A DNA stretch of 64,000 bases from Oscillatoriaceae cyanobacterium M7585_C2015_266. GTDB taxonomy: Bacteria; Cyanobacteriota; Cyanobacteriia; Cyanobacteriales; Oscillatoriaceae. The first letter of the stretch is position 1. Each line of letters opens with the position of its first letter. The notes under the pieces were generated by a model that was not told the DNA's origin, searched no databases, and was given only the letters and a program-made list of their open reading frames with translations. The position numbers and the translations under genes were made by a program. Positions 4,334 to 53,898 of the stretch are shown piece after piece. Location of the stretch: positions 62,001 through 126,000 of the forward strand of contig DVEG01000015.1 in NCBI GenBank assembly GCA_015295835.1. Direction: 5' to 3'.

Positions 4334-5058
4334 GTATTCTTGATTAGAAAAAATATTTTTTATTATTTATTTATATAAAATTTTTGATGGTTATATAAAA
4401 TGCTCTAGGGACATTTCTATTTGATAATAACCCTAGAACCCTCAGAGATGACAGCAGGAAAGTGAAATGTTGAGATTTGCTAAATTATTTGGCATCCAGC
4501 TAGCACCCCTCTGTCGATAGAGGTAAACTCTACAATCAGAAAAGTCTTCGACGGGAGATTTTTAAAACAAAGTTCTTTTTCGTCTGATTGCTTGCAGTCG
4601 AAATATGCAGCGGGTATATTTGATGTTTCGCCAGGATGGAGTTTTTGTAGGCAAGGGCTTACACGAGAACCTCTGCTTTGGGCCATTTTTTTGAGTATTT
4701 ATACTCAGAAATGAATGCCAACCCCGACTGCACGGGAATGTTGACTGAATAATCATCAAGGATGGAGGCGATTTACTTTTTCCAAAGACTTGCAACTAAT
4801 TAAACTGAATGAATCTAAAAATACCACAATAATTCACTCTTTTGTAAATCCTTTCAGAAGTTAAACTTAATTTTATGTTTATCGAGTTATTGAAATAGTC
4901 AGATGAATAATACTAATTATCTGTTTTGTATAAGAGCGTTTGACATCTACTAAGAGAGAATCAGCAAATTTAAATTTGATTGGGAGGGTGGATGTCGCGA
5001 TTTTATACGATGCAGTAAAAAGAAGCATTCAGGCTTGGCGAGCGCTAAATATTTAATT
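4334..5058. other. AT-rich intergenic region, no gene seen
   Basis: About 725 bases between aroB and the STAND-WD40 gene. Only short antisense ORFs without family resemblance are present. One imperfect inverted repeat (TCTAGGG about 4404 / CCCTAGA about 4430) lies 70 bases after aroB and may end its transcript. The 3' half probably holds the promoter of the downstream gene, but no clear -35/-10 pair can be picked. Confidence 0.6.
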
Positions 5059-8000
5059 ATGACTTATCCGCGTGAATCTTCGCAAAGCCATAATCAACGA
5101 GCATTAAAAATTTTGGCTAGAGCCATTACCCTTTCTCAGGGTCAATTTTCGCTGATTTTGGCGCGCTGTAACTATGCAGAATTGCAAGAACGGATGGTGC
5201 AGCAGCTCCGCGAATATCTACAAAATCGTAAAAAAGACAGCGATCGTTTTGAGGAAACGGCGGCAACAGAGATTAAAGAAATTATTCTATCTGAGTTAGC
5301 AAGCTCCCTATATAACAGCATTCAGGAAAATGTGCAAGCACAACCCCCGCAGGCTTTAATGATTTTCGGTTTAGAGTCAGTAAGAAACCAGGAGCGCCTG
5401 CTAGCATCTGCCAACCAAATGCGGGAGGAGTTTCGCAAAAGTTTTCCATTTCCCTTAGTGCTGTGGGTAAACGATACGGTAATGCAAAAGCTTACGCGGT
5501 TAGCCCCAGATTTCAAAAGTTGGGCAGCTACATCGATTAAATTTGAAATCGCTACAGAAGAACTAATCAACATCCTACGCCAGCCATTTCATCAGCTGTT
5601 TGCTAGTATAGAAACCCCATTTCTTGAAGAAACCTGGTTTCTGAATAAGCTGCCTTCTTGGATAAGTAGCCGCGCCACAGAAATCGAATTTGCCCTACAG
5701 GATTTGCAATCTCGCGGCGTCAGTTTGGAACCCCACGACGCAGCAGGAGTGGAATTCTTCCTAGGCGCTGTTGCAGCAGAAAACAAGCAGTTTGATGTAG
5801 CTTTAGAACATTATCAGCAGAGCTTGAATTTTTGGAATCAGCCAGAAAACTTAACTTCTGCACAGCAGCCTGACTCCTTATTAGAAAAAGCAACTATCCT
5901 GTTTTATATAGGTTTGTGTTATTGGCGCAAAGCAGAAACCGAACTTTCCCCCAATCGTGAATATCTAGAAGCAGCACGTGAACACTTACAGCAATCGATT
6001 AATTTATTTGAAGAAGCGCGGCGACAAGATTTAGTAGCTAGATTTAGTGTAGAGCTAGCTGAAATTCTACGACGCTTACAAGCGTGGGATGACTTAGAAA
6101 TATTAGCACAAAAAGCTCTGCTACTGCATTATGCCGACAACTTGCCAGTGCAGTTGGCAAGAGATTACGGCTTTTTAGCTGAAGTAAACTTAGAGCGTGC
6201 AGAAGCAGCTTTGCAGTCAGGAAATATTAATAGTGCCCAGTGGTTAGCGTCAGATGCCAAGTGGGCGGCACAGCAGGCATTAGAGATACTGGCTGAAGTT
6301 TCTGAAGATGTACGTGTGTATCGATGTTTATATTTGTTTTTGCTGGCGCGAGCTCTATTAGTTAGATTAACTGGCTCTAGAATTTCAGATAGTCGTCGCG
6401 CAAATGTTAGAAAAAATGCGATCGCTTATTTAGAATTAGCCAGACAACTAAGCAGCCCCGAGCAAGCTCCTCACCTCACCATTCGTATCCTCCAAGAGTT
6501 GCGCTCGCTTTACTTCCAGCAAAAACAATATCTAGAAGCTTTTCACATTAAACAATACCAGCGCGCCCTCGAACACCAATACGGTTTGCGAGCCTTCATC
6601 GGAGCCAATCAATTGCAACCAAACCGACAAGGAATTTCCTCTTCTGCTATTGCTCCTGAAATTTTAGTCTCTTGTCGCTATCGCGATATCGAGCGCTTAC
6701 TCGCCCGTTTACAACGAAATGACTACAAACTTACAATTATCCACGGAAATTCAGGCGTTGGTAAGTCATCTTTAGTAAATGCTGGCATAGTACCAGCATT
6801 GCGCCAGCAACCTATTGGCTCGCGCATTGCCTTACCTGTGGTGCTTAGAGTGTACAGCTACTGGGTAACCGATTTAGGGCTAGCTTTAGCAGAAGTCTGC
6901 GGCAAAGAAGAAATAAATTCTTCAGAAGCAATTAAGCGTACTTTTAGACAAAATGCCGAGCATAATTTCCTCACTGTTTTAATTTTCGACCAATTTGAAG
7001 AATTTTTCTTTGTTTGTACTGATGCTAACGAGCGACGAGAATTTTTTGAATTTTTGCGTGATTGTCTAGATATTCCCTTTGTCAAAATTATCCTTTCTCT
7101 ACGAGAAGATTACCTCCACTACTTGCTGGAGTGGGAACGTCTCATGCCACTCGATGTTATCAACAATAATATTCTCGATAAAGACATCCGCTACTACATA
7201 GGCGATTTTTCCAAACAAGACGCTCGTGCTGTTATTACTCGTCTAACAGAAAGGGCACAATTTTATCTAGAGCCTGAACTGATTGACGCCTTAGTTGAAG
7301 ATTTGGCAGACAAAAAAGAAACAGTCAGCCCAATCGAGTTGCAACTTGTGGGGTTGCAATTGCAAGAGGATAAAATTACTACTCTTGAAAAATATCGCAG
7401 TCTAGGCGCTCGCCCCAAAGCCACACTTGTTGAACGCTTCCTCGAACAAATAATTAACGATTGTGGACGCGACAACGAAGATGTCGTTTGGGCAGTCTTG
7501 TTTGCTCTCACTGATGTTAAAGACGAGAAAGTTAGACGCCCCCTCAAAACCAAAGATGAATTAGCTGCACTAACTTCTTGCCCCGAACAGATAAACTTGA
7601 TATTAGAAATATTATTTGGTTCAGGGCTGGTAGTTCGCCACTGGCAAGAACCCGGAGAACGCTATCAACTCGTTCACGATTATCTTGTGCATTTTATTCG
7701 TAAAAAATATGAAAATAGGGAAAAATCTAATTTCAAAGAGCGACTATCGAAAAGTGAAGAGGAAAGAAGACTGTTTAAAAAAATAGCGATCGCTGGTTTG
7801 GGATTAGCTACTCTGGGTTTATTTGCAAGCGGTTTATGGCTGCGAGCCGAGAATTTAAAGCAAAAAGCAGAAAACTTACGTTCAAAAGCAGAAATAGCCG
7901 AAATTAATGCCAAAATAAAAGCCCACGTAGCCTCTTCAGAATTGATGTTTATTTCTAATCAAAAATTAGATGCGCTCGTAGAAGGGTTACGAGCGTGGAA

Positions 8001-9945
8001 AGCGCTACAACCGGTAGTTCAGCAACAGCCAGAAAACCGCATCAGGGTAGCAAGTATATTGCAACAGGCAGTTTATGGAGTAAGTGAGCGCAACCGCCTC
8101 GAAGGGCACCGAGACAGCGTATGGAGCGTTTGTTTCTCACCAGATGGAGAAATAATTGCCTCTGCAGGAAATGATCAGACAGTGAAACTTTGGAATCGAA
8201 AAGGTAAACTATTAAAAGTATTGGAAGGGCATAAAGACAGCATCACCAGCGCTAATTTTTCTCCAGACGGAGAACTGATTGTTTCGGCAAGTCGGGATAA
8301 AACGGTAAAACTGTGGCGGCGAGACGGTACACTATTGCAAACTTTTATTGGACACAGCGAGCGCGTTTACGATGCGGTTTTCAGCCCTGACGGAAAAGCG
8401 ATCGCTACAGCATCTCACGATAAAACAGTAAAACTTTGGAGCCTAGACGGTAGACTCCTGCATACTTTTAATGGACATACAGAAGCAGTAGAAGCCGTTA
8501 GTTTCTCTCCCGATGGACAATTAATTGCTTCCGCCAGTGACGATAAAACAGTAAAACTTTGGCAACGAGATGGTACTCTCATAAATACATTAAAGGGACA
8601 TTCTCACTGGGTAATGGCAGTCACTTTTTCTCCTGACGGAGAGTTAATTGCTTCAGCTTCTAGGGATGGTACTGTTAAACTCTGGAAACGAGACGGCACT
8701 CTAGTGAAAACCCTTCAAGGTACGAACAAAATCGTTTACAGTGTAACTTTCAGCCCCGATGGGCAACTTATTGCCACTGGCGGCGATGATCAAACGGTAA
8801 GACTCTGGAAACGGAATGGCACTCTGCTAAAAACATTTTATGGACACAGTGGGCGGGTGACGCGGGTGAGTTTTAGTCCCGATCGCAATCAATCCGGGGA
8901 GAAAACCCCGCTGATTCTCGCCTCAGCGAGTTTAGACAAAACTATAAAACTTTGGAGTTTAGAGCCTATCCAACCAATCTCTCTCAAAGGTCATAAGGAG
9001 CGAGTTAATAGTGTCAGTTTCAGCCCAGACGGAGAGCTGATTGCCACTGGTTCTAGAGATAAAACAGTCAAATTGTGGAGTCGCGATGGACACTTAAAAA
9101 AAACTCTTGTTGGCCACAGCGATCGCGTTACCAGTGTAAATTTTAGCCCTGACGGACAATGGCTAGTTTCCGCCAGTTTAGACAAAACCGTAAAATTGTG
9201 GAGTCGAAACGGAGACTTATTGCGCTCGCTGTCGGCAGGTACTCCCATTTACGATGTCACTATCAGCCCCGATGGTGAAGCGATCGCTGCTGCTGCTTTT
9301 GACAAAACAGTCAAACTTTGGAACCGACACGGGCAATTGCAAAAAACATTCATTGGTCACACAGAACGCGTTAATAGCGTCAGATTCAGCCTAGACGGAG
9401 AATTACTTGTTACCGCAAGCGACGACAAAACCGCGAAAATTTGGAATAAAAACGGACAGTTGCTACAAACCTTAGCGGGAGAAGATGCTCACCTTTCTTA
9501 TGTCACGAGCGCCAATTTTTCTCCCAATAACACCCTCATCGTTACTGGCGGTTGGGATAATACAGTCAAACTGTGGCCAGTCAAAGGTGGCAAACCTAAA
9601 ACCTTTTTAAAAGGCTACAGTGATAGTGTCACGAGCGCAGTTTTTTCTCCTGACGGTTATATTATTGCATCTGGCGGTTGGGATGGCATGGTCAAATTGT
9701 GGGGTTTAGACGGCTCTTTACTTAAAACATGGCAGACGCGAAATTCTGGTATACTCGATGTTTGTTTTAGCCCTGATGGGGGAGCGCTCGCTGCTGCCTA
9801 TGCAGACAATGTTGTAATTTTGTGGAATTTAGATTTGCAAGATTTACTTACACGCAGTTGCGACTGGGTGCGCGATTACCTCGAGAACAATCCCAATATT
9901 AGCGAGAGCGATCGCCATTTGTGCGACGGTATTACTACTCACTGA
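5059..9945 (+). CDS. STAND-type NTPase with TPR-like region and 14 WD40 repeats
   Basis: A 1628-residue multidomain protein. In order: an N-terminal region (about 1-200) seen in cyanobacterial signalling proteins; a TPR-like helical region (about 230-520); a P-loop NTPase with Walker A GNSGVGKS (Lys569) and Walker B LIFDQFEEF (about 643); a winged-helix-like part; one membrane helix (about 908-928); a short coiled coil; then 14 WD40 units from about residue 1014, most with SPDG and KLW. Fourteen repeats would make two seven-blade propellers. The tail CDWVRDYLENNP and RHLCDGI is common in this class. STAND proteins are ligand-triggered switches; the signal and effector are unknown. The ATG at 5059 is preferred over an upstream TTG at 5035. 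No adjacent effector gene is seen. Confidence 0.85.
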   Translation: MTYPRESSQSHNQRALKILARAITLSQGQFSLILARCNYAELQERMVQQLREYLQNRKKDSDRFEETAATEIKEIILSELASSLYNSIQENVQAQPPQALMIFGLESVRNQERLLASANQMREEFRKSFPFPLVLWVNDTVMQKLTRLAPDFKSWAATSIKFEIATEELINILRQPFHQLFASIETPFLEETWFLNKLPSWISSRATEIEFALQDLQSRGVSLEPHDAAGVEFFLGAVAAENKQFDVALEHYQQSLNFWNQPENLTSAQQPDSLLEKATILFYIGLCYWRKAETELSPNREYLEAAREHLQQSINLFEEARRQDLVARFSVELAEILRRLQAWDDLEILAQKALLLHYADNLPVQLARDYGFLAEVNLERAEAALQSGNINSAQWLASDAKWAAQQALEILAEVSEDVRVYRCLYLFLLARALLVRLTGSRISDSRRANVRKNAIAYLELARQLSSPEQAPHLTIRILQELRSLYFQQKQYLEAFHIKQYQRALEHQYGLRAFIGANQLQPNRQGISSSAIAPEILVSCRYRDIERLLARLQRNDYKLTIIHGNSGVGKSSLVNAGIVPALRQQPIGSRIALPVVLRVYSYWVTDLGLALAEVCGKEEINSSEAIKRTFRQNAEHNFLTVLIFDQFEEFFFVCTDANERREFFEFLRDCLDIPFVKIILSLREDYLHYLLEWERLMPLDVINNNILDKDIRYYIGDFSKQDARAVITRLTERAQFYLEPELIDALVEDLADKKETVSPIELQLVGLQLQEDKITTLEKYRSLGARPKATLVERFLEQIINDCGRDNEDVVWAVLFALTDVKDEKVRRPLKTKDELAALTSCPEQINLILEILFGSGLVVRHWQEPGERYQLVHDYLVHFIRKKYENREKSNFKERLSKSEEERRLFKKIAIAGLGLATLGLFASGLWLRAENLKQKAENLRSKAEIAEINAKIKAHVASSELMFISNQKLDALVEGLRAWKALQPVVQQQPENRIRVASILQQAVYGVSERNRLEGHRDSVWSVCFSPDGEIIASAGNDQTVKLWNRKGKLLKVLEGHKDSITSANFSPDGELIVSASRDKTVKLWRRDGTLLQTFIGHSERVYDAVFSPDGKAIATASHDKTVKLWSLDGRLLHTFNGHTEAVEAVSFSPDGQLIASASDDKTVKLWQRDGTLINTLKGHSHWVMAVTFSPDGELIASASRDGTVKLWKRDGTLVKTLQGTNKIVYSVTFSPDGQLIATGGDDQTVRLWKRNGTLLKTFYGHSGRVTRVSFSPDRNQSGEKTPLILASASLDKTIKLWSLEPIQPISLKGHKERVNSVSFSPDGELIATGSRDKTVKLWSRDGHLKKTLVGHSDRVTSVNFSPDGQWLVSASLDKTVKLWSRNGDLLRSLSAGTPIYDVTISPDGEAIAAAAFDKTVKLWNRHGQLQKTFIGHTERVNSVRFSLDGELLVTASDDKTAKIWNKNGQLLQTLAGEDAHLSYVTSANFSPNNTLIVTGGWDNTVKLWPVKGGKPKTFLKGYSDSVTSAVFSPDGYIIASGGWDGMVKLWGLDGSLLKTWQTRNSGILDVCFSPDGGALAAAYADNVVILWNLDLQDLLTRSCDWVRDYLENNPNISESDRHLCDGITTH

Positions 9946-20430: not shown

Positions 20431-21294
20431 TTATAGCTTTGATAGAATTTTGGTGACTTCGGCGCACAGTTGTTCATGGCACTTGCCATTACTGGCGATC
20501 GCGCATCCCCACTGATTGGCGTCGCCTTGATTATACAGCAGTGGAGTGCCGTCAGTGCGGGTAAATTTTCCTCCTGATTCAGTTAGAATTAGTTCGGGAG
20601 CAGCTAAATCCCAATCTTTGGGGGCGAATTTCCCAGAAAGCAGAATGAAAGCATCGGCTTTTTGTTCGGCAATTGCTGCGATTTTGCAGCCGATACTGCC
20701 GCGATACTGTTTGTTTTGACAAGGCAGTTTTTGCAGGAGTTCGTGCAATCTTTCGCCGCTGTGTGTGCGTCGGCTGAGGAGGAGAATATCCTCTAGGCGC
20801 TCGCGTTTTGAAACTTGCAAGTGATAGCGCTCACCTGCTCTATTTTCTACAAACGCACCTCCTCCTTGCTGGGCGTAATATAATTTTTCTGTTTCTGGAG
20901 TGACAACAACCGCTACGACGGGGCGCCCTTCGTAAACTAGGGCAATATGTACCGCATACTGGCTGCTACGGCGCATAAATGCTTGCGTACCGTCAAGTGG
21001 ATCGATAATCCACACCCAAGATTGAGGCAGGGGCTTTTTCTCGCTGCTACTCTCAGGTTCTTTGTAGGTTTCTTCGCTCAAATAGCCAAATTCTTGCGAG
21101 CCAAATGCTATTCGCAACTGCTGCAAAATGTAGTCATTGGTGGCTAAATCTGCTGCTGTGACTAGCCCTTCCTTTTTCTGTTTGACTGATAGGTAAGTCG
21201 CGCCGTCAGCAAAAGTATTTAAAATGTCGGCTGCGCCCCACCCAATCGTGCGAGCGATCGCTCCGATTTCATCTAGTCTCTTTTCAAAAAGCAA
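20431..21294 (-). CDS. Inositol monophosphatase / 3'(2'),5'-bisphosphate nucleotidase family
   Basis: 287 residues of the lithium-sensitive phosphatase superfamily. Metal site motifs are visible: LSEET, IDPLDGTQAF (near residue 95) and WDLAAPELILTESGG near residue 233. The sequence resembles CysQ-type enzymes that recycle PAP during sulfate assimilation as well as inositol-phosphate phosphatases; I cannot separate these by eye. The start is TTG at 21294: AGGAGG lies nine bases upstream and an in-frame stop TAG precedes it, so no earlier start is possible. Confidence 0.85.
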   Translation of the reverse strand: MLFEKRLDEIGAIARTIGWGAADILNTFADGATYLSVKQKKEGLVTAADLATNDYILQQLRIAFGSQEFGYLSEETYKEPESSSEKKPLPQSWVWIIDPLDGTQAFMRRSSQYAVHIALVYEGRPVVAVVVTPETEKLYYAQQGGGAFVENRAGERYHLQVSKRERLEDILLLSRRTHSGERLHELLQKLPCQNKQYRGSIGCKIAAIAEQKADAFILLSGKFAPKDWDLAAPELILTESGGKFTRTDGTPLLYNQGDANQWGCAIASNGKCHEQLCAEVTKILSKL

Positions 21295-21640
21295 ACCAGT
21301 CTACCTCCTACTCTCACAATTTTTTGTCACTTAACTTATAATTCTTCCCGCCTTTCCCAAATCTCCCGTGCCGCTAATATACAATCCAACTTAATACAAT
21401 CTGTTCCTTCCATATTATATTTTTTACTTAGATGGTTTATTTTTTTGAAAATTATCTATTTTTTAAATTAAGCCTCTTAATAAAATCTCATAATTTATCC
21501 CAAAATTTATTAAAAACTAAATTCAAACTAATAATAAAAATAGAAAAGCAATCCCAAGTGAGAGTAAAGCCTGGTTGCAATACCACAAAAATTGCACGAC
21601 CTGCTATATTAGAAAAAGTGCTACTCCTGTTAAAGAGCTC

Positions 21641-21884
21641 AATCCCTATAAGGGAGTAAAATAAATTAAGGCAAGAGCGTGAGAGGTTGTCACCGCATCA
21701 GGGGAACTATAAAAAAATACCAACTGGGTGCATCAATCGATTTACTACCGTGAAAGCTTGTGCTCTCGCTCAAGCCAGTCAGGTAAACTCCCTAACCACC
21801 ACTAAATCCTGTGGAGGTTTTAGAGAAATCTGCCTGAGTGTCATTCGCAGGGGCTGCGGCTGAGCTTTTTCCCTAGGGGATATT
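21641..21884 (+). ncRNA. Putative structured RNA of unknown class
   Basis: Between two genes, this stretch has nested complementarity. AATCCCTA...AGGGA at 21641-21656 can pair with TCCCT-AGGGGAT-ATT at 21869-21884 (imperfect). GAGCGTGAGAG (about 21676) pairs with CTCTCGCTC (about 21763-21771). TAACC-CCAC (about 21793-21801) pairs with GTGG-GGTTTTA (about 21811-21822), itself enclosed by CAGGT (21780) / GCCTG (21832). No long ORF spans it. I tested it by eye against tmRNA, RNase P RNA, SRP RNA and common riboswitches without a match; 6S RNA or a mobile-element RNA remain possible. Strand is uncertain. Confidence 0.4.
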
Positions 21885-21944
21885 TGCTAGTTGTCGCCTA
21901 TATTAAATCTAAAAGAATATGCAAGATTGGCCTTTTTTAAAGTT

Positions 21945-22010
21945 CGCTCCCTGAGCGTGACATCCTCCTAAGGCAGGAAAACCCATTACAGAAGCGTGAA
22001 TGGAAAATGC
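21945..22010. other. Hairpin-rich segment, possibly a mobile-element end
   Basis: Contains CCTGAGCGTGACATCCTCC and, after about 20 bases, ACAGAAGCGTGAATGG. From memory, this wording is reminiscent of cyanobacterial IS200/IS605-type right ends, but the resemblance is loose. It lies just upstream of the first hybrid kinase, so it could equally be part of that gene's leader. Confidence 0.25.
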
Positions 22011-22029
22011 ACTATAAGGGGGCGATTCG

Positions 22030-25000
22030 ATGAAACTTCGCAAGAAGACACTGTTGATAATTGGCGCAGCACTTATCGTTAATCTAATCTTGTACGCAGC
22101 CGCCTCCAGCATCTTGCTACGCCATTTCCAAAAACTAGAAGAACAATCCCTCGGCAAAGAAATGGCGCGCGCCCAAGCGGCGCTGAAAGCAAATGTCGCC
22201 AATTTAGAAACAATAGTTAATAATTACGCCCGCCAAAAGAACAGCAACCTCAACGACATACTCTCGCATTTTACCACTACCACATTGGCGGTATCAGGGC
22301 TTGACTTTGTGGTGGCAACCGATGAAAAAGGGAAAATCCTTACCAGCGTTGCCTTCGAGGGCGCTCGCCAAGCCCCAAACCCTATTTCCCAGAGCTTGCT
22401 ACAGCACTTGAAAGCCGATAGCCCCCTGATAGCACACCCTCAAGCAAACGAAATTGTCTCTGGAATTATACTCCTGCCAGAAAAAGCTGTAGCAGTTGCC
22501 TCGCACTCTATTTTAAACGGCAGATTAATTTTGGGACGCTACTTGGATAAAACAGATATCTCCCGCTCCCTGCAACTGCCTTTTCAGTCTTTGACTTTGT
22601 ACCCACTTTCGTCAAAACCGCTGACGCCGGAAACATTGGCGGTGCTAGATGCTTTAACGCAAAAGGGAAACCCATCACCGACATTAAAGCTCGTCCAAAT
22701 CGACAACGGCTACGTCGCCCTCAAACCGAAAAATCAAAGCAAAGATCCTCCGGAAATAGCGGCATATGCCCTCTTCAAGGATATCTATAATCAGCCTGCA
22801 CTATTGTTACAAGTAGATTTTCCCCGCCTCATCTACCAAAAAGGGGAAGCCAGCATACGCTACCTCACCCTGTCGATGATAGTGCTGAATTTGGCATTCA
22901 GCACTGTTATCCTGCTGCTGGTAGAAAAATTCATCCTGTCTCGGTTGGCACGGCTAAATGCCAGTCTGGCAAGCATTGGCGAGCGCGGCTTACTTTCCAT
23001 GCGCGTCAATCTCAGCGGTAACGACGAACTATCTTCCCTAACTGACACCATCAACCGCATGTTAGATGCTCTAGAAAATTCCCGCCACCAGAGCGACGAA
23101 AGCGAAGAGCGCTATCGCCTGATAGCCGAAAACTCCACCGACTTAATCGCCAGACATACCTTAGACGGCATTTTCCTATATGCATCCCCTGCCTGTCGCA
23201 CTCTTTTAGGATACGAACCAGAAGAACTCATCGGACGTTCCTGCTTTGAATTTTTCCATCCTAAAGATATTAAGTCAATTCACAAAACCCTTAAAGCTCT
23301 GCAACAAAGCACATCTACCTACACCCTCAGCTATCGCATCCGCCGCCAAGATGGGGATTATATTTGGTTTGAATCCACTTACCGCAGCATCCGCGACACG
23401 AAAACTGGTACAGTGCAAGAAATAGTAACAGTTTCTCGCGATATCACCGAGCGCAAACAAACTGAGCAAGAATTGCGAGAAAGCGAGTCATATATTCGGG
23501 CTCTTTATAAAGTTACATCTACTCGTAAACTTTCTTTTGAAAAACGCCTGTCAGGATTACTGGCAATGGGAAGACGGCGATTTGGTATGGAATACGGTAT
23601 TTTATCCCGTATCGAAGGCGATCGCTACCAAATCATCGCCGCCCAATCCTCCAATAAATCCCCGCAAAGTTTCACCTTCACAGAGGGCGAAGTTTTCAAC
23701 TTGCAAGACACCTTCTGTCGCGAAACCGTACGGCACGGAAAACCCCTATACTTCGAGTCTGTGATGGTATCTCCCTTCTCACCCCATCCCCCAGACTCTC
23801 CCTTTCAGCAAGACGCCTATATAGGCATGCCAGTGATAGTATCTGGCCAGATTTTCGGCACCCTCAGCTTTTTTAGCCCCTCCCCCCTCAACAGACCTTT
23901 TAGAGCAGTAGACAAAGAACTTTTAAAACTCATGGCTCAGTGGATTGGGCGGGAACTGGAGCGTCAGCGAGACGCCAAAGATTTGGCCAGAGCCAGGGAT
24001 CAAGCTCTAGAGGCGACGCGAGCCAAGAGCGAATTCCTTGCTACAATGAGCCACGAAATTAGGACACCCATGAATGGCGTGATTGGTATGACAGGTTTAC
24101 TGCTCGACACGCCATTAACACCAGAACAACGTGAGTTTGTTGAAACTATCCGCACTTGCGGCGATGCCCTGCTGACAATTATTAATGACATTCTCGACTT
24201 TTCTAAAATTGAGTCAGGCAAGCTGGATTTAGAACAGCAACCATTCAACTTGCGCAATTGTCTTGAAGAAGCCATTGATCTTTTTGCATCCAAAGCAGCC
24301 GAAAAAAATCTGGAAATAGTTTATTTTATATCGCAGCAGACACCAGCAAATATTATCGGAGATGTCACAAGGCTTCGTCAAATTTTAGTCAATTTAATCA
24401 GCAATGCTGTCAAATTTACTGACAGCGGCGAAATTGTGATCTTGGTTGATTCACGAAGGCTTTCGACAGAAAAAGCAGAATTTGAAAATCAAATTCAATT
24501 GGCTCATAATAATGATAATACCGAGCAGTTTTACGAAATTATCTTTGTTGTTAAAGATACCGGCATCGGCATTCCAGCCGACAGAATGCACCGCTTATTT
24601 CAGTCATTTAGCCAGATAGATTCTTCAACAACACGCCAATATGGCGGCACGGGGCTGGGTTTAGCAATCAGTCAGCGCCTGTGCGAAATGATGGGAGGCA
24701 GGATGTGGGTAGAAAGTAAAGGGGCAAAGGGTGGAAATCCTCCGGGTTTGGATGAATTAGCAGAAATGAAAAATAAATTAGATTGTCTCGTGCCGGGTTT
24801 ATCCTCATCACCGGAAACAGAGAAAGGCTCTAGTTTTTATTTTACGCTCACAGCAGCTTCATTCCCAGGCTTGCTACCCTTTGAGATAGAGCAAACCCAA
24901 AAATTGGCAGGCAAACGTCTGCTATTGGTGGATGATAACACCACAAACCTACAAATTTTGAGCCTGCAAAGTCAAGCCTGGGGATGTTTGCCTTATATAG

Positions 25001-26184
25001 CGCACTCGGCAGAAGAGGCTTTGCGCAAAATCTCTCAAGAAGAACCCTTCGATATAGTAATTCTGGATAAACAAATGCCAGAAATGGAAGGGCTGACACT
25101 AGCGAAAAAAATTCGTTCTTTGCCGCAAGGGAAAGTTTTACCTCTAGTATTGATTGAGGTTTTGAGGCGAAAAAATATTGGTGCTTCTGAAAAAGATATC
25201 GAATTCGCAGCAATTCTGAATAAGCCAATTAAACAATCTCAACTTTATAATGTTTTGGTAGAAATTTTTACAGGAGTGCCTCAGAGCGCCCAATCGCTGC
25301 AAATCGGGCAAGTAACTCCTGCTCTCGGGGCTGTTAACCCATTGCGGATTCTTTTAGCAGAAGACAATCCCGTAAACGTAAAAGTAGCACTACTGATTTT
25401 GGAGCGAATGGGATATCGCGCTGATGTCGCTGGCAATGGACTAGAAGTACTTGACGCCCTGCGCCGTCAGTGCTATGATGTGATTTTAATGGACGTTCAA
25501 ATGCCAGAAATGGACGGTTTGGCAGCGACTCGTCAGATTTGTCGGGAATGGCCGAAAGAAAAACGTCCACGAATTATTGCCATGACGGCAAATGCTATGC
25601 GAGGCGATCGCGAGGAGTGCATCAATGCGGGAATGGATGACTACATTAGCAAGCCAATACGAATGGAGGAATTAGCGCGGGCGCTTTTCCAGTGTCAGCC
25701 ATATTCTAAATCTCCAGAACAAATTGAAACACCAGAAGTAATGGCAAGCGAAAGCAAATTCTCGGCAAATTCCCCAGATTTAGAAGAAAAGCTAGATACG
25801 GAGGTGTCAGCTTTTCAGCCAGAAGAGCAAGCAACCGATGCAGCAGCCCCGCTCTTGAATGAAAAAGTCTTGCAGTCACTGCGTGAGATAGAAGCCCTCG
25901 ACGAAGTGATTGATATCTATCTCGAAAATGTTCCCATACTACTGCAATCAATCCATGAAGCGATCGCTCTTAACGACGCGCCCGCTCTGCGCAATGCCGC
26001 CCACTCAATGAAATCCACCAGTGGCACAGTGGGAGCCTCCAGCCTCTTCGAGCTATGCAAACATCTAGAAGCAATGGGGCGGGCTGGCACGACTGCAGAC
26101 GCGCCACCCCTGCTCAAACAAGTTGAAGCTGAATTTATGAAAGTTAAAGCCGCCCTAGAAATAGAACGGCAGCGCTGTCAATAA
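22030..26184 (+). CDS. Hybrid sensor histidine kinase (CHASE4-HAMP-PAS-GAF-HK-REC-REC-HPt)
   Basis: 1384 residues, inner-membrane sensor. Order: membrane helix (about 7-29); periplasmic sensor resembling CHASE4 (30-275); second helix (278-302); HAMP (to about 352); PAS (about 362-480, ending [12 protein letters not shown]); GAF (490-640); HisKA with [11 protein letters not shown] (His675); HATPase_c with [13 protein letters not shown] and the [10 protein letters not shown] box; receiver 1 (about 960-1085, [10 protein letters not shown]); receiver 2 (about 1105-1225, [12 protein letters not shown]); C-terminal HPt with AHSMKS (His about 1325). Every phosphorelay residue appears intact. No separate response regulator gene is adjacent. 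ATG start after GGGGGCG; the long leader is described separately. Confidence 0.93.
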
Positions 26185-26201: not shown

Positions 26202-26438
26202 TTAAAATTTGTTGAGATCGATCCCGGCTTCCTTTGCCATTGCCTGCAAACCCTTTTTTTCTATGGTTTTCAGTGCTTTAGTAGACAGGCGTAACCTTAC
26301 CCAGCGCTTACCTTGTGGCCACCAAACACGCTTCCACTGTAAGTTAGCTTCTTGCAACCTGTGGGTGCGACGGTGCGAGTGGGAAACTGAAAACGCATTA
26401 TTCGCCCTTTTACCAGTCAACTGACAGACTCTCGACAT
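26202..26438 (-). CDS. rpmB: 50S ribosomal protein L28
   Basis: 78 residues from [21 protein letters not shown]28 family features: the C-x-x-TGK start, [16 protein letters not shown] and the basic [15 protein letters not shown] end. An AGGAGG lies eight bases before ATG 26438 and fixes this start rather than the longer frame from 26474. It is a single gene on the opposite strand between two very large hybrid kinase genes; its stop lies 18 bases from the stop of the first kinase. Confidence 0.95.
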
Positions 26439-26706
26439 TACACAACCTCCTAAGTTTACTTTTTTACCGTGCAATCTCTCATTCTATCGAATCCCCTGCC
26501 GACATGACGACGTAGGGCAACGCAACCTTTCACTTTTCCTTCATCACCCCCGTGGGAACCTTTCTTATAAGCGTACCGCCATTTTTACATCAAATTAAGC
26601 TAATGATTATAACATTTTATGAATTATTGCTGGAAGAATTTAATATTATTTTTATAAAAATCCTCTATCATACTTGAGGAAGACAGGAATAGCAAAGAGT
26701 AGCATT

Positions 26707-29700
26707 ATGAGCGAAGGGCTGTTTTTAAATAGGTTGCGACGACGCCATTTGACCAGACTGCTGCCGATCGCAGGAACGACTATAGCTTTGACAGTCACTG
26801 CAATCCTCAGCTATTCGTATGTGCGAGGTTTAATTCTTGAAAAGTTAAAGCTAAATGTCTTGCTTACAGTCGAAAAAGGGCGGGATAATATCGATAGCTG
26901 GCTGGCGAAGCGCAAAGCCGAAATAGAAACCCTCGCCAACTCTCCCCTGCTCCAGACTCTAGAACCCTCAGTCGTAGATTCTTATTTAAAAACAGAAGAT
27001 AAACGGCTAAAGGACTTTTTCCTTCTGGCAATGGTAAAACCAAACGGAGAGTTCTACACCACTAAAGGAGGGCGGGGAAATATCAAAGATCGCAAGCACA
27101 TCCAAAGGGCACTGGCTGGGGAACTCTACATTTCCGATCCGGTAATTTCTCGCTCAACAGGAGTCGTGAATGTGGCAGTTGCTGCTCCGATATGGTCAAA
27201 TCAGCCTGATGTAAAAAATCCAATCGGCGTGTTAACAGGCAATATCAAACTCGATCGCATAGCCACAGTAGTAAACGACTTGAAATATGGCACAGAGAGT
27301 TATGCGTTTGCCCTCAATTCCGAAGGTGTGCCGATTGTCCATCCCGATCCAACAGTAATTGGAAATCTCGACAAACCAAAACCAAGTTTTTTGCAAAATA
27401 ATGATCCGGCTTTAGCTAAACTTGCCCGCTGGATGGTTGATGAGGGCACCGGGATCGAGCTAATCAAAATGCAAGGAAAGTGGGTATATGTCGCCTATGT
27501 ACCCCTGCAAGAAACAAACTGGTCTTTTGCCCTAGTGATTCCGCGAAATAATCTCGAAAAAGAATTGCACTCTCTTAACCTGCTAGCTGCCGTCGTTGGA
27601 GTACTACTGGGAATCGTCATATTCACCACCATTTGGCTGTTTTTGCTTTCAGAAAAAGCCGAAGCCCGCGCCGCTTCCGAGGCTATGCTCAACCGCCTCA
27701 CCGAGCGGATTCGTGCTTCCCTAGACTTAGAAGAAATCCTGAAAACAACAGTTGAAGAAGTTGCCACCTTGCTACATTTAGAACGGGCAGCTTTTGCCTG
27801 GTACGATTGTCAACAAAATACCTTAATAATTGAGTGGGAATACTCTAAACAGCAAAAAGATAAAAAAAATCTCCAGTTAGAAATAGGAATATGGAAAGAT
27901 TTTTCACAAGCCTTTAAAAAAGGCAAAGTAATGCGAGTGAATGGAAGAGAAGGAGCAATTTTGCTGGAAATTGCAGGGGAAAATTTATTAGCGCTTTCTG
28001 TTCCAACCGAAAATAAGCATCAAGGTTATTTAATTTGTAGCAAAATAAAACCAGCTTCTTCAAAGTTTATTAGCGCTCGCACCTCCATAAATAATAATTG
28101 GAATATGGAGGAGATAAAAATACTACAGCTCATAGTAGAATCCCTGGCGATCGCCATTAACCAATCTCACCTTTATACCCAAACCCGCGAATCCGAAGCC
28201 CGGTTTGAAAAACTGGTAGCCAATGCACCAGGAATGCTATATAGATTTATTTTCCCCAAACAAGGCAATTATTATTTTTCATTTGTCAGCTCTAAAGTAC
28301 AAGAAATTTATGGATGGGAAGCCCAAGAAATTATAGAGAATGCAGATTTATTAATCAATGCTATTCATCCAAAAGACAGAGAAAGCTGGAATAAATATGC
28401 AGCAGTAGCAGACGAAAAACTGCAAACCTTAAAGTGGGAAGGAAGGATAATAGATAAATCAGGTTCAATAAAGTGGATAGCGGTATCTTCGCAACCAGAA
28501 CGACAAGCCAACGGCGAGGTAATCTGGGATGGATTAGTAATGGATATTACAGAGCGCAAACTACAGGAAGCAGAACTAGAAAAAGAAAGACAACTGTTGC
28601 GGCAAATAATCGCGATCGCACCCGTATGGATAATGATGTTCGACCGAGAAATGCGCTATATAGCTTACTCCAATAAATGGCTAATCGAAAGCGGCTGCGA
28701 AGGACAAAATCTCATCGGGCGCTGCCATTATGAAATCTTCCCAGACTTACCAGAGTGTTGGCGAGAACTACACTCGCGAACCCTTGCAGGAGAAATCCTC
28801 TCCAATTCTGAAGAAGTTTGGCAGCGTGCCAATGGCGAAAAAATTTACTTTCGCTGGGCGTCACAACCTTGGTATACCAAAGAAGGAGAAATTGGAGGCA
28901 TCGTCATAGTCGGCGATCGCATTGACGAATTAGTGCAAGCAAGAGAAGCAGCCCTAGAAGCCGCCCGCTTCAAATCACAATTCTTAGCAAATATGAGCCA
29001 TGAAATCCGCACCCCAATGAACGGCGTCTTGGGAATGGCAGGGCTACTACTACAAACCAATCTCAACCCACAACAGCGCGACTACGTCCAAACCCTCTGC
29101 ACCAGCGGTCAACATTTACTCAGCCTCATCAACGACATTCTCGACTTTTCCAAACTCGAAGCCGGGGAAATGTCTCTGGAAAATATCGATTTTGAATTAA
29201 ATACTTGTCTGGAAGAAGTAGTCGATTTGCTGGCAGCCTCTGCAGAAGCCAAATCTCTAGAATTAGCATTACTAATTGATCGTGATATTCCTTTGCAATT
29301 GCGGGGAGATCCGGGAAGATTGCGACAAATTTTACTTAACTTAACCGGCAATGCCATCAAATTTACCGATTCTGGAGAAGTCATAGTACAAGCAACACTC
29401 CAGGAAAAAACCGCAAATACTGTCAAAATTCACTTTTCTGTAAAAGATACAGGAATCGGCATTTCCTCAGAAGGGCAACAGAAACTATTCAAATCCTTTT
29501 CTCAAGTGGATGCCTCCACCAGCCGCCAGTATGGCGGTACCGGTTTGGGGCTGGCAATTTGCAAGCAATTAGTCGAATTGATGGGAGGCTCTATCGGCGT
29601 TGAGAGTACTCCTGGCATCGGTTCTACCTTTTGGTTTACCGCTCAGTTTAAATTACAAAAAACAACCACTTACCCAGTGCCGCCTTTCAGTAAATTGAGA

Positions 29701-30981
29701 ATATTGGTAGCGGCGAATAACGCTGCGATTCGCCAGTCAGTGCGGGCGCTGGCATCGGGATGGGGAATGCAGATAACAGAAGTAAATTCTGGCAGTGCTG
29801 CCCTGAATTGTTTAAAACAAGCAGCAGCAAGCGCACAACCCTACGACGTGGCGCTCTTTGATTTACAACTGAGCGATATCATCATCGAATCACTTGTACA
29901 ACAAATAGCTTCCGAACCGACAATGGCGGTGACAAAAGCGATCGTAATCAGCCCCCTGAATCAGCGACACCGCGCTGAGTTTCTCCTTGAAATGGGAGCC
30001 GCTAGTTACTTAATTAAGCCGGTGAGAAGTTCGCGTCTCTTTGACTGCCTAATGAGTGCCCTTGCACCTCGGTTTGTAACAACTCCATTCGCAGTCAGCC
30101 ACCCGACAGCACCGGAGAAAATAACCGACGCTAAACTGGTTAAAAATGAAATAAAACTAAGAATTTTGCTGGCAGAAGATCATCCGATTAACCAAAAAGT
30201 CATCCTTAATCAATTGGAGATATTGGGATATGAAGCCGACTGTGTAAATGACGGGCGCGAAGCTCTGCAGCGACTGAAAGAAAAGCAATATGATATTGTT
30301 TTAATGGATTGTCAAATGCCGGTTCTAGATGGCTATACTGCTACACAAGAATTGCGCCGCATGGAAGGTGCAAAACGTCATACAGTGGTTATTGCTTTGA
30401 CGGCTCACGCGATGCCAGACGTTCGCGATAAGTGTTTGGCTGCAGGAATGGATGATTATATTACTAAGCCAGTCGAGCTCAATGATTTGGCAGGAGTTCT
30501 CAAACGCTGGTGCAAAGGTGGTAATATAGATACAGATTTAAAGGAAAATACCTCTCAAAAACACCTTGCTCAAGAGATAGAAGCAACAGAAATCTTGAAT
30601 TCTCCTCCTGCTGATGCGCCAGATGCGCCTATTGATGTAGAGCGTTTGCAGCAAGTTTCCAGGGGTAAGGTGAAATTACAGCAGCAGTTATTGCAAACTT
30701 TTGTGAAAATGACGCAGAGCGACTTAGAAGCGGCTTTTTTGGCAATTCAAACAAGCGATATAGTTGCTTTGGAGCAGCGGGCGCACCGGATTAAAGGAGC
30801 AGCTGGAAATGTGGGGGCAAGAGCGCTTGCTTCCCTAGCTGCACAGCTAGAAGTTAATGCTAGCAAAATTCCTTTGGAAGAAGCAAAATTGCTGTTATTT
30901 AAAATCGAGGAAAATTTGCAAGAAATTCGCAATTTTTTTGAAATTTATTTTGTAGAAACGCAGCCAGTAGCAGTTGATTAA
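26707..30981 (+). CDS. Hybrid sensor histidine kinase (dCache-GAF-PAS-PAS-HK-REC-REC-HPt)
   Basis: 1424 residues, membrane sensor. Order: helix (about 18-40); double-Cache-like periplasmic sensor (45-295, with [14 protein letters not shown] and DPVISRSTG); helix (297-322); GAF (350-500); two PAS domains (515-640, 645-765); HisKA with [11 protein letters not shown] (His765); HATPase_c with [10 protein letters not shown]; receiver 1 (about 995-1115) whose acidic pocket is replaced by AANNAA although an Asp remains in LFDLQLSD; intact receiver 2 ([22 protein letters not shown]); HPt with [10 protein letters not shown]. Only receiver 2 is likely to accept phosphate. Frame is open back to a TTG at 26674; ATG 26707 is preferred. 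Domain plan parallels the 22030 kinase. Confidence 0.93.
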
Positions 30982-51696: not shown

Positions 51697-53898
51697 ATGG
51701 CAAACAAACTTGACCAGTCCCCAACACCAGAGAGTGGCAATATCGTCGGCATGTCCACGGACAGCTACCACCAACCTACTGCTGCTATGTCAGAACAGAG
51801 TACAGAAACAATCAATAACCTTGAGAAGGAAACCACACCTGAAAGCAGTCCAAAAAAAGACAGTGGATTGGGATTGCCACTCCTATGGTTGAGTATGCTA
51901 CTGGTGTTTGGGGGAACAGCCACCAGCGCCTTTCTCTGGTTGATCACTATGCCGCCGCCTGTTAACTGCCAGAATATTACTCCCCTGTCGCCAGATATGG
52001 AGCGTCTGCATTGCGCTCAGCAATCAGCGGCGACTCGCAAGCTAGAAAAATTGCTCGAGGGTTTAAATTTGGTTAAGGATTGGCCAGAGGAAAATCCCCT
52101 CTATTCTCAGGCTGCACAATTGCGAGATCAATGGTCGCGCTCGCTCCTAGAATTGGCACAACAAAAGATGGACGCCGGAGATATCAAGAGCGCTCGAGAA
52201 ATAGCTAGCAAAATTCCGCCAAATGCTTCTGTCTATAAGGAAGGGCAAGCAGTTGTAGGGGTCTGGCAAAATGACTGGGAAAGAGGCGAAACAATTTATA
52301 ATAAAGCTTTGCAAGCTCTGAAAAATCAACAGTGGCAGCAAGCAACAGCATACGCCCAAGAACTGTCTCGCTTGCGGAATGAATACTGGAGGCAGCAACG
52401 CTTAACAGAGTTAATCAAGCAGATATCGGCAGAAAAAGAAGGGTGGCGCAAGCTAAGAGAAGCACGGAATCTGGCAAGCTACGAAACTCCGGCAGATTTA
52501 GAAGAGGCGATCGCATTGATTGGCAAAATATCGCCCTCTACTTATGTCTACGCCACCGCTAAATCAGAAATGACAAAATGGAGCAGAAAGCTGCTAGCAG
52601 CGGCAGCAAAACGACTAGAAGAAAAAGATTATGAAGGAGCGATCGCAATAGCAAAGAAAATTCCCTCAGAATCAACTCTCTACCCTGAAGCCCAAGATTT
52701 CATTCAGCTCAGTACAGCTAATATGATTCTCCCAGAAACGGCAGTCTCTTCAATGCCGTTTGCAGTCCATATTTTCGCCCTTATGGAAGCTCAAGCTGCC
52801 GCCCGCAAGATAGAACCCAATCGTCCCCTGTATAAAGAAGCTCAAACAAAAATTAGCGATTGGCAGGAACAAATAAAAGACTTCCTCCAACTCCAGGTAG
52901 CAAGTATCCTGGCAAATGTGGGCCAAGGTTTGACCCTGCAACTAGCTATTGACCAGGCTCAACAAATAGGTAAGAATCGACCTAAGCGTCTACATGCCCA
53001 AACCCTAATCGCTCAGTGGCGTAAAGAATTAGCAGTGGCTCAAGACCGACCGTTTATCGTCAGCGCCCAAATGCTGGCAGCAAAGGAAACGCCAGAAGGA
53101 TTGCGCTCAGCGCTCGCTCAGGCTCGTCAAGTCGCTCCGGGAAGACCTCTGCGCTTAGAAGCTCAAACTCTTATCGCTTCTTGGAATAAACGTGTTGAAA
53201 TTTTAGAAGACCAACCAATATTAGACGAAGCAAAATCGCTCGCTAAGCAAGGAGAACTCAAGAAAGCAATTCTCACAGCTGAAAAAATCAAACCAAATCG
53301 CGCTCTCTACGCCCAAGCACAGCAAGCAATTGCAGACTGGACATACCAAATTCAAGTCAAAGAAGATCGCCCCATCCTAGAAGAAGCCACGAAACTAGCC
53401 GCGCAAGGTCGCCTCTTTGAAGCTATTCAAAAAGCTTCTCAGATTGCTTACGGTCGGGCCCTCTACTATGAAGCACAAGAGGGAATAGCTCGCTGGAGCG
53501 CTGAACGAGATGCTTACCTCCGAGCTCAGGAAGCAGCAGTTGCAAGAGATACCTATTCACCCCCCGCTTATTCACCGCCGCAAGAAGCTTATGCGGCACC
53601 GGCAGAACCTTATTATCCGCCACAAGAAAATTATGCGGCACCAGCAGAACCTTATTATCCGCCGCCGCAAGAAACTTATACGGCACCGGCAAAACCTTAT
53701 TATCCGCCACAAGAAACTTATACGGAGCCGGCAGAACCTTATTACCCGCCGCAAGAAACTTATACGGCACCGGCAGAACCTTATTACCCTCCAGCAGAAG
53801 CACCGCCAGCAAGGGCGGAAGCCCCCGCTCCTGAACCTCCTCCAGCAACTGAACCACCAGCTGCTGCCGAACCCCTGCCTATCGATGGCATAGAGTAA
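51697..53898 (+). CDS. Membrane protein with helical repeats and Tyr/Pro-rich tail
   Basis: 733 residues, unknown function. A polar cytoplasmic N-terminus (1-57), one membrane helix (about 58-84), then about 540 residues of TPR-like helical repeats with recurring phrases such as AIAKKIPSESTLYPEAQDFI, KIKPNRALYAQAQQAIADW and QARQVAPGRPLRLEAQTLI. The tail (630-733) is made of five 14-residue E-x-Y-A-P-A-E-P-Y-Y-P-P-Q units and an Ala/Pro/Glu-rich end. Likely a periplasmic scaffold or envelope-binding protein, by inference. The ATG is preceded by CAGGAGCAAGC. The DUF3685 gene begins seven bases after the stop, so they share a transcript. Confidence 0.75.
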   Translation: MANKLDQSPTPESGNIVGMSTDSYHQPTAAMSEQSTETINNLEKETTPESSPKKDSGLGLPLLWLSMLLVFGGTATSAFLWLITMPPPVNCQNITPLSPDMERLHCAQQSAATRKLEKLLEGLNLVKDWPEENPLYSQAAQLRDQWSRSLLELAQQKMDAGDIKSAREIASKIPPNASVYKEGQAVVGVWQNDWERGETIYNKALQALKNQQWQQATAYAQELSRLRNEYWRQQRLTELIKQISAEKEGWRKLREARNLASYETPADLEEAIALIGKISPSTYVYATAKSEMTKWSRKLLAAAAKRLEEKDYEGAIAIAKKIPSESTLYPEAQDFIQLSTANMILPETAVSSMPFAVHIFALMEAQAAARKIEPNRPLYKEAQTKISDWQEQIKDFLQLQVASILANVGQGLTLQLAIDQAQQIGKNRPKRLHAQTLIAQWRKELAVAQDRPFIVSAQMLAAKETPEGLRSALAQARQVAPGRPLRLEAQTLIASWNKRVEILEDQPILDEAKSLAKQGELKKAILTAEKIKPNRALYAQAQQAIADWTYQIQVKEDRPILEEATKLAAQGRLFEAIQKASQIAYGRALYYEAQEGIARWSAERDAYLRAQEAAVARDTYSPPAYSPPQEAYAAPAEPYYPPQENYAAPAEPYYPPPQETYTAPAKPYYPPQETYTEPAEPYYPPQETYTAPAEPYYPPAEAPPARAEAPAPEPPPATEPPAAAEPLPIDGIE
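53584..53796 (+). repeat. Five in-frame tandem 42-45 nt repeats
   Basis: Units start at 53584, 53626 (45 nt), 53671, 53713 and 53755 and encode EAYAAPAEPYYPPQ-type 14-mers. The DNA is nearly identical between copies and prone to expansion or contraction. Open frames on other strands here (53423-53973) are shadows of the repeat. Confidence 0.9.

Follow-up and report, generated by a model that had tools for sequence, protein, structure and literature searches.

The window analysed here is a 64-kb stretch of the genome of Oscillatoriaceae cyanobacterium M7585_C2015_266 (3.98 Mb in 35 contigs). It contains a gene-free intergenic region between a gene for an inositol-monophosphatase-family protein and a large hybrid histidine kinase gene, and the features discussed below are collected in Table 1. 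The initial annotation had described 21641-21884 as an RNA-like stretch with no gene, and the interval indeed lies inside the gene-free region. A hidden protein gene was considered and rejected on frame length, the longest stop-to-stop frame wholly within the interval being 67 aa. Base composition changes along the region: about 21350-21599 is AT-rich (16-32% GC), and from about 21550 on the GC content is 40-50%. The source genome has no congener in the 60-genome BLAST set. Its family (f1) accounts for 8 of these 60, and the named members include Oscillatoria princeps RMCB-10, Oscillatoria sp. PCC 10802, Oscillatoria sp. Prado101 and Microcoleus vaginatus WJT46-NPBG5.

Table 1. Position of the foldback, its parts and the adjacent genes, in window coordinates.
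Feature	Position	Strand	Details
Inositol-monophosphatase-family protein gene	20431-21294	-	divergent neighbour of the kinase
Intergenic region	21295-22029		735 bp, gene-free
Possible flanking direct repeat, left copy	21667-21676	+	TAAGGCAAGA; separated from the arm by 6 nt
Alternative local domain with the GAGC..CTCTCGCTC arm	21670-21776	+	32 pairs, 3 G-U; excludes the long stem
Left arm of the long imperfect inverted repeat	21683-21744	+	62 nt; GAGGTTGTCACCGCATCAGGGGAACTATAAAAAAATACCAACTGGGTGCAT...
Inner hairpin	21779-21837	+	59 nt; CAGGT...GCCTG around AACC.CCAC/GTGG.GGTT; 18 pairs, 1 G-U
Right arm of the long inverted repeat	21904-21967	+	64 nt; its end is 62 nt before the kinase start codon
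Block in the right arm, weakly similar to pre-kinase sequence of O. princeps, PCC 10802 and Prado101 (genus g2)	21908-21937	+
Possible flanking direct repeat, right copy	21969-21978	+	TAAGGCAGGA
CHASE4-HAMP-PAS-GAF-HisKA-HATPase-REC-REC-Hpt hybrid histidine kinase gene	22030-26184	+

Several other features of the window were recorded. A second large hybrid kinase (dCache-GAF-PAS-HisKA-REC-REC-Hpt, 26674-30981) follows the first, and between the two kinase genes sits a short minus-strand frame (26202-26474), which we take to resemble ribosomal protein L28. A long WD40 repeat domain is fused to a STAND NTPase at 5035-9945. At 53567-53793 a 42-nt tandem repeat of about five copies lies within a 733-aa frame, for which no Pfam match was obtained at E 1e-5.

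Upstream of the first kinase the DNA forms a foldback of about 285 bp, in which two arms enclose a core of 159 nt with a strong hairpin in it. In the core part of the arm alignment GAGGTTGTCACCGCATCAGGG---GAACTATAAAAAA stands against GAGGATGTCA-CGC-TCAGGGAGCGAACTTTAAAAAA. The gapped inverted repeat of the arms was equalled by 0/2000 shuffles under each of two scorings. All 49 arm-to-arm pairs are Watson-Crick (G-U 0/49). In a slightly wider fold the G-U share is 0/52 for the long-range pairs and 5/102 for all pairs, against 13.4% in folded shuffles. The long stem has a mean pairing probability of 0.77 over 52 pairs, six sampled pairs giving 0.63-1.00. Folding of 21680-21970 is far beyond chance on both strands (z -5.4 on the plus and -6.0 on the minus strand, 0/200 shuffles on each). 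The limits of this segment were set after the fold was known, and the scan of the whole window is thus the fairer control. The stem also emerges when 21612-22060 is folded (z -3.2, 0/100 shuffles), and the part inside the arms (21745-21903) has a z of -3.0. Unconstrained, 21612-22029 folds at -127.6 kcal/mol; with the pair span limited to 120 nt it folds at -113.3 kcal/mol.

The window was scanned for inverted repeats in 848 overlapping 450-nt stretches and for folding z in 161 stretches with 30 shuffles. With the strict gapped score the foldback is the top of the window at 35, followed by a runner-up at 29. Its folding z of -5.97 is the lowest of the 161, the other 160 stretches having a mean of -0.41, an sd of 1.22 and a minimum of -4.26. 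With softer gap penalties it is second (52 vs 54) to 27976-28425, a stretch inside the second kinase gene. The foldback is real and strong.

These folds correct the outline that had been drawn before. The hairpin TAACC-CCAC/GTGG-GGTTTTA, with CAGGT/GCCTG closing it, is confirmed: the folding energy of 21775-21846 is -24.7 kcal/mol, compared with -13.4 (sd 2.8) for shuffles (z -4.1, 0/100), and the mean pairing probability of the hairpin within the full leader is 0.92. The proposed outer stem AATCCCTATAAGGGA/TCCCTAGGGGATATT forms if the interval 21641-21884 is folded alone, but with the flanks it is absent and its two sides make small local hairpins. The outer imperfect stem is then the pair of arms listed in Table 1, which lies partly outside that interval. 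The 9-bp arm does belong to a competing local fold, but its domain (21668-21773) is at chance level when taken alone (z -0.3, 40/100 shuffles). The whole interval folded alone gives z -2.3 on the plus strand (2/100 shuffles) and -2.6 on the minus strand (1/100). The region is unusually foldable, but the earlier outline of it was off.

The local left domain and the long stem are mutually exclusive. In the model the pairs of the left domain have a mean probability of 0.66 when the transcript ends at 21945 and 0.02 when it ends at 21955. The domain with the 9-bp arm would thus be displaced once the right arm is made, as predicted at equilibrium rather than from kinetics.

Searches for further copies and relatives found only the element itself. 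BLAST of 21560-22029 against the 60 genomes at E 0.001 gave a match in one of them, its own. With 21660-21890 as query against 388 genomes of the order, the best match outside its own genome had E 0.002 over 40 bases, so that no relative was obtained at E 0.001 in the 387 other genomes; at E 1 short matches appeared in 293 of the 388, as chance predicts. A covariance model of 21669-21843, built from this single sequence and run with strict filters on 291 genomes at E 0.1, recovered itself and nothing in the 290 others. Run against the window and 18 kinase loci of relatives, it returned itself, two matches at E 6 and the opposite-strand reading of the same hairpin (15.7 bits, E 0.048). Plasmids and phages gave no match, and neither of two exact patterns was present in viral contigs. 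No second copy of the whole element was found in its own genome, where the arms, searched separately, gave short matches at most (best other E 0.08 and 0.26). A MITE family sought through the arm pattern TGTCAC.GC.TCAGGG was rejected: the pattern recurs at two other places of the genome, and at neither is it accompanied by the remainder of the element. The foldback is apparently single-copy. Literature searches on cyanobacterial MITEs and foldbacks, on structured RNAs with Oscillatoria and on CHASE4 hybrid kinases of cyanobacteria showed nothing on this locus.

Sequence related to the N-terminus of the kinase is present in 34 of the 60 genomes, its own included (E 0.001). The upstream neighbour of the kinase varies. 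In the sister genera g2 and g3 the place of the inositol-monophosphatase-family gene is taken by other genes, presumably a miaA-like gene in g2 and a glycosyltransferase-like gene in g3. About 550-650 nt before the orthologous kinase are kept in g2 and g3, mostly at 0.78-1.00 identity per 50 nt, which is comparable to the 0.82-0.88 at fourfold-degenerate coding sites, and the last 78 nt of the leader are significantly similar between the two genera. Between L051 and L052 the upstream sequence is kept to about 580 nt before the kinase start and ends at a sharp edge, beyond which the two are unrelated; it looks as if the kinase had moved together with its leader or the neighbour had been exchanged.

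Of a conserved core upstream of the same gene, as in riboswitches, what is found here is a weak similarity of 30 nt in the right arm. Its alignment to PCC 10802 scores 39 (0/300 shuffles), and the two other g2 sequences score 34 and 32 (5/300 and 6/300), in a shuffle test that covered 15 loci. In blastn the block gives E 0.64-1.7, where the L048 row is an upstream match and the L054 and L056 rows are not; nhmmer on this intergenic region alone gives it E 0.013. The left arm resembles a Microcoleus block (GGGAACTA...AAAATAC) in a pairwise alignment, but homology was rejected, since 46/300 shuffles did as well for L054 and a profile of 26 leaders does not find the block at E 5. The g3 leader L052 reached 2/300 in the same shuffle test, at a place that does not correspond. 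The profile took 26 of the 30 Microcoleus-type loci, leaving out L093 (large insertion), L104 (108 nt upstream only), L107 and L115 (not alignable), and the structure alignment A7 took 25, leaving out L108 (deletion) as well. The large insertion of L093 lies inside its leader. At the Microcoleus-type loci (L054, L087-L114) most of the 25 aligned leaders share a strongly conserved block, GGAACTAAAGNTGTGAAAATACTACACTGACTGTGG, some 195 nt upstream of the kinase start, which is perhaps a promoter or regulator site.

Folding of the relatives' leaders is mostly ordinary. Among six leaders of the sister genera that of O. princeps alone is beyond chance on the plus strand (z -2.6), and the other five range from -0.2 to +1.1. 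The best inverted repeat in each of 21 leaders, with 120 shuffles for each, was equalled by 0/120 for this leader, 0 for L053, 3 for L075 (O. princeps) and 3 for L056; in the remaining 17 leaders, 15 to 116 of the 120 shuffles were as good. A duplex test of 14 leaders gave 0/300 and 1/300 for this one and 3/300 and 0/300 for L060, and was not significant in the sister genera (36-238/300 in g2 leaders, 17-223/300 in g3 leaders). A narrower duplex test on the shared block was significant in none of four leaders, this genome's among them (261/600 and 309/600). For the 25 Microcoleus-type leaders the consensus energy is -5.2 kcal/mol with 15 pairs, four of them with two-sided change.

Another foldback lies in L053 (G038), about 139-290 nt before the kinase start, with arms ATACCAAATCCGGG... 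and z -5.6/-5.2 on the two strands. It is strand-symmetric and precedes a related kinase, and such elements thus do occur at this kind of site.

Pairing across genera was followed on the alignment A2. With all rows, including the sequence that the fold came from, 53% of cells are paired at the true register vs 34-40% when slid. Paired cells, two-sided cells and the covariation score beat 500/500 shuffles; pairs with two-sided change (80/500) and pair types (232/500) do not exceed them. When this genome is left out, 43% of cells are paired over all pairs vs at most 41% over 16 slides. For the long stem in six relatives the values are 54% at the true register and at most 47% over 16 slides; by genus they are 58 vs 46% in g2 and 50 vs 49% in g3, on rows that are not independent and with a left-arm alignment that is unreliable. 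This modest excess at the true register is suggestive only. RNAalifold of g2 alone pairs the right-arm block with an upstream segment, which differs from the one that A2 aligns to the left arm. Pairing across genera is thus suggested at most.

The 285-base foldback matches no known RNA class. We consider a DNA-level origin to be the most likely one, with about an even chance for a single-copy DNA foldback that arose by local inverted duplication or as a MITE-like insertion that has since lost its other copies. The strand symmetry, the absent G-U pairs and the missing homologs speak for a DNA-level inverted repeat rather than a stem selected as RNA, since an RNA stem would be expected to hold some G-U. 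The same origin is favoured by the lack of matches outside its own genome (BLAST at E 0.001, and the covariance model in 290 others), by the different upstream neighbours in the sister genera and by the ordinary folding of five of their six leaders. The site adjoins the AT-rich stretch 21350-21599, and no counterpart was found at orthologous loci. A possible flanking direct repeat, TAAGGCA(A/G)GA, is 9/10 identical between its copies; its exact 7-mer TAAGGCA is equalled at 228/6000 random places and at 76/2639 GC-matched ones (about 3-4%). Against this reading stand the failure to find a second copy of the whole or of either arm, the GC content of the element (41-50%), the 6 nt between the left direct-repeat copy and the arm, the weak right-arm similarity to a sister genus, the pairing of that block with an upstream segment in a fold of the sister genus alone, the long-stem pairing excess on A2 and the covariation above all 500 shuffles. 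The similarity, the pairing and the covariation are better explained by an ancestral structure than by a recent insertion.

We suggest that the foldback upstream of the kinase gene formed at the DNA level instead of evolving as a conserved RNA. If it is co-transcribed with the kinase, the RNA would, in the equilibrium model, first fold the local left domain. With the emergence of the right arm at about 21955 it would switch to one long hairpin, ending 62 nt before the start codon. The likeliest effect is passive and may consist in a changed stability of the leader or a changed access to the ribosome site, rather than in ligand sensing. If the foldback is a relic only, it illustrates that strong folding predicted where no gene lies is, by itself, not evidence of a functional RNA.

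An unlikely but still arguable alternative is a genuine cis-acting, fast-evolving leader RNA, in which a switch between the local left domain and the long-range stem controls expression of the kinase. The kinase lies on the same strand just behind the stem, the two conformers are predicted to be mutually exclusive, and the upstream sequence is kept in two sister genera despite their different neighbour genes. The similar right-arm block, which the fold of g2 also pairs upstream with its other partner, the modest pairing excess and the folding of the O. princeps leader, beyond chance on the plus strand only, are consistent with it too. However, the other five of the six sister-genus leaders are no more stable than shuffles, their duplex tests are not significant, and the 25 Microcoleus-type leaders have almost no consensus structure. 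The stem itself is without G-U pairs or strand preference, and the covariance model has no relatives in 290 genomes. If this alternative were true, a hybrid histidine kinase would be under the control of an RNA switch; to our knowledge none is established for this type of gene.

The stronger form of the leader alternative is more doubtful still. In this form the long stem would be ancestral and fast-evolving, a leader structure common to the kinase family: a helix spanning about 200 nt that, during transcription, displaces the local domain and sets expression. The weak right-arm similarity and the modest pairing excess make an old, fast-evolving leader structure possible, with low probability. 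A conserved riboswitch, as had been proposed for the kinase gene, is not supported: no relative appears by DNA or covariance model, and the leaders of sister genera and of the Microcoleus type are as described above. Strong riboswitch candidates combine, in the passages of PMC8632094 that deal with them, robust sequence and structural conservation with a consistent gene context. The foldback does not show the robust conservation asked for in those passages.

That the foldback is a well-folding intergenic stretch of no special origin, produced by chance, seems unlikely. A stretch inside the second kinase gene beats it with soft gaps, L060 is low in one test too, and the duplex of the arm block by itself does not reach significance, but 0/2000 and 0/200 shuffles reach it and none of the other 160 stretches is as extreme. 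Transcription of the intergenic region into a separate small RNA of some 250 nt is improbable. A -10-like TATATT at 21605-21610, found by eye, and the rise in GC from about 21550 would suit it, but a consensus scan gave no plus-strand promoter near 21600 and no terminator, no relative was found, and no stem lies directly ahead of the T-run at 21866-21870.

A known RNA class (6S, tmRNA, tRNA or another Rfam family) is hardly credible despite the size and the overall hairpin appearance: the Rfam scan that had been called for gave no match in the window at gathering cut-offs, in agreement with the initial remark that no RNA class was recognised, ARAGORN found no tRNA or tmRNA in the window, and the suggested 6S-like RNA is not supported, the 6S RNA of this genome being on another contig (G000:C10:292898-293080, 104.6 bits). 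A permissive Rfam scan of 21295-22100 gave four matches at chance level (E 2.8 or worse). At 15 kinase loci of relatives Rfam gave two matches, both under their own cut-offs and rejected: MIR2630 in L056 (34.8 bits vs a cut-off of 144) and an NsiR1-like match in the orthologous kinase leader of O. princeps (L047:1255-1305, minus strand; 25.6 bits vs 39, E 0.77).

Among known systems, 6S RNA (RF00013) resembles the foldback in its long, mostly double-stranded fold and its similar length; unlike it, the foldback is without an Rfam match, and the 6S gene is elsewhere in the genome. With 5' leader regulators and riboswitches the foldback shares the same strand, the position upstream of a regulatory gene and two exclusive predicted folds; it differs from them in having no conserved sequence core, no homologs found and no ligand-related gene context. 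The last of the initial suggestions, a mobile-element RNA, comes closest as to origin, that of a foldback, although no second copy was found in the genome. The MITE traits given in passages of PMC10969869 are direct repeats, inverted-repeat ends, AT-richness, AT-rich intergenic sites and stem-loop transcripts. AT-richness is a typical rather than a strict trait, and the element, at 41-50% GC, is not AT-rich. The same passages put copy numbers at 1 to hundreds, and a single copy therefore does not exclude a MITE. Membership in MITEs is tentative. One copy and no related element were found here, and the direct repeat is weak, with its left copy 6 nt from the arm. As in the MITEs and foldbacks of those passages (QMITE2 of Coxiella, which is described, and Nezha of cyanobacteria, which is cited), the element at this locus is short non-coding intergenic DNA with inverted-repeat arms at its ends and a possible flanking direct repeat, and its transcript would be a long stem-loop.
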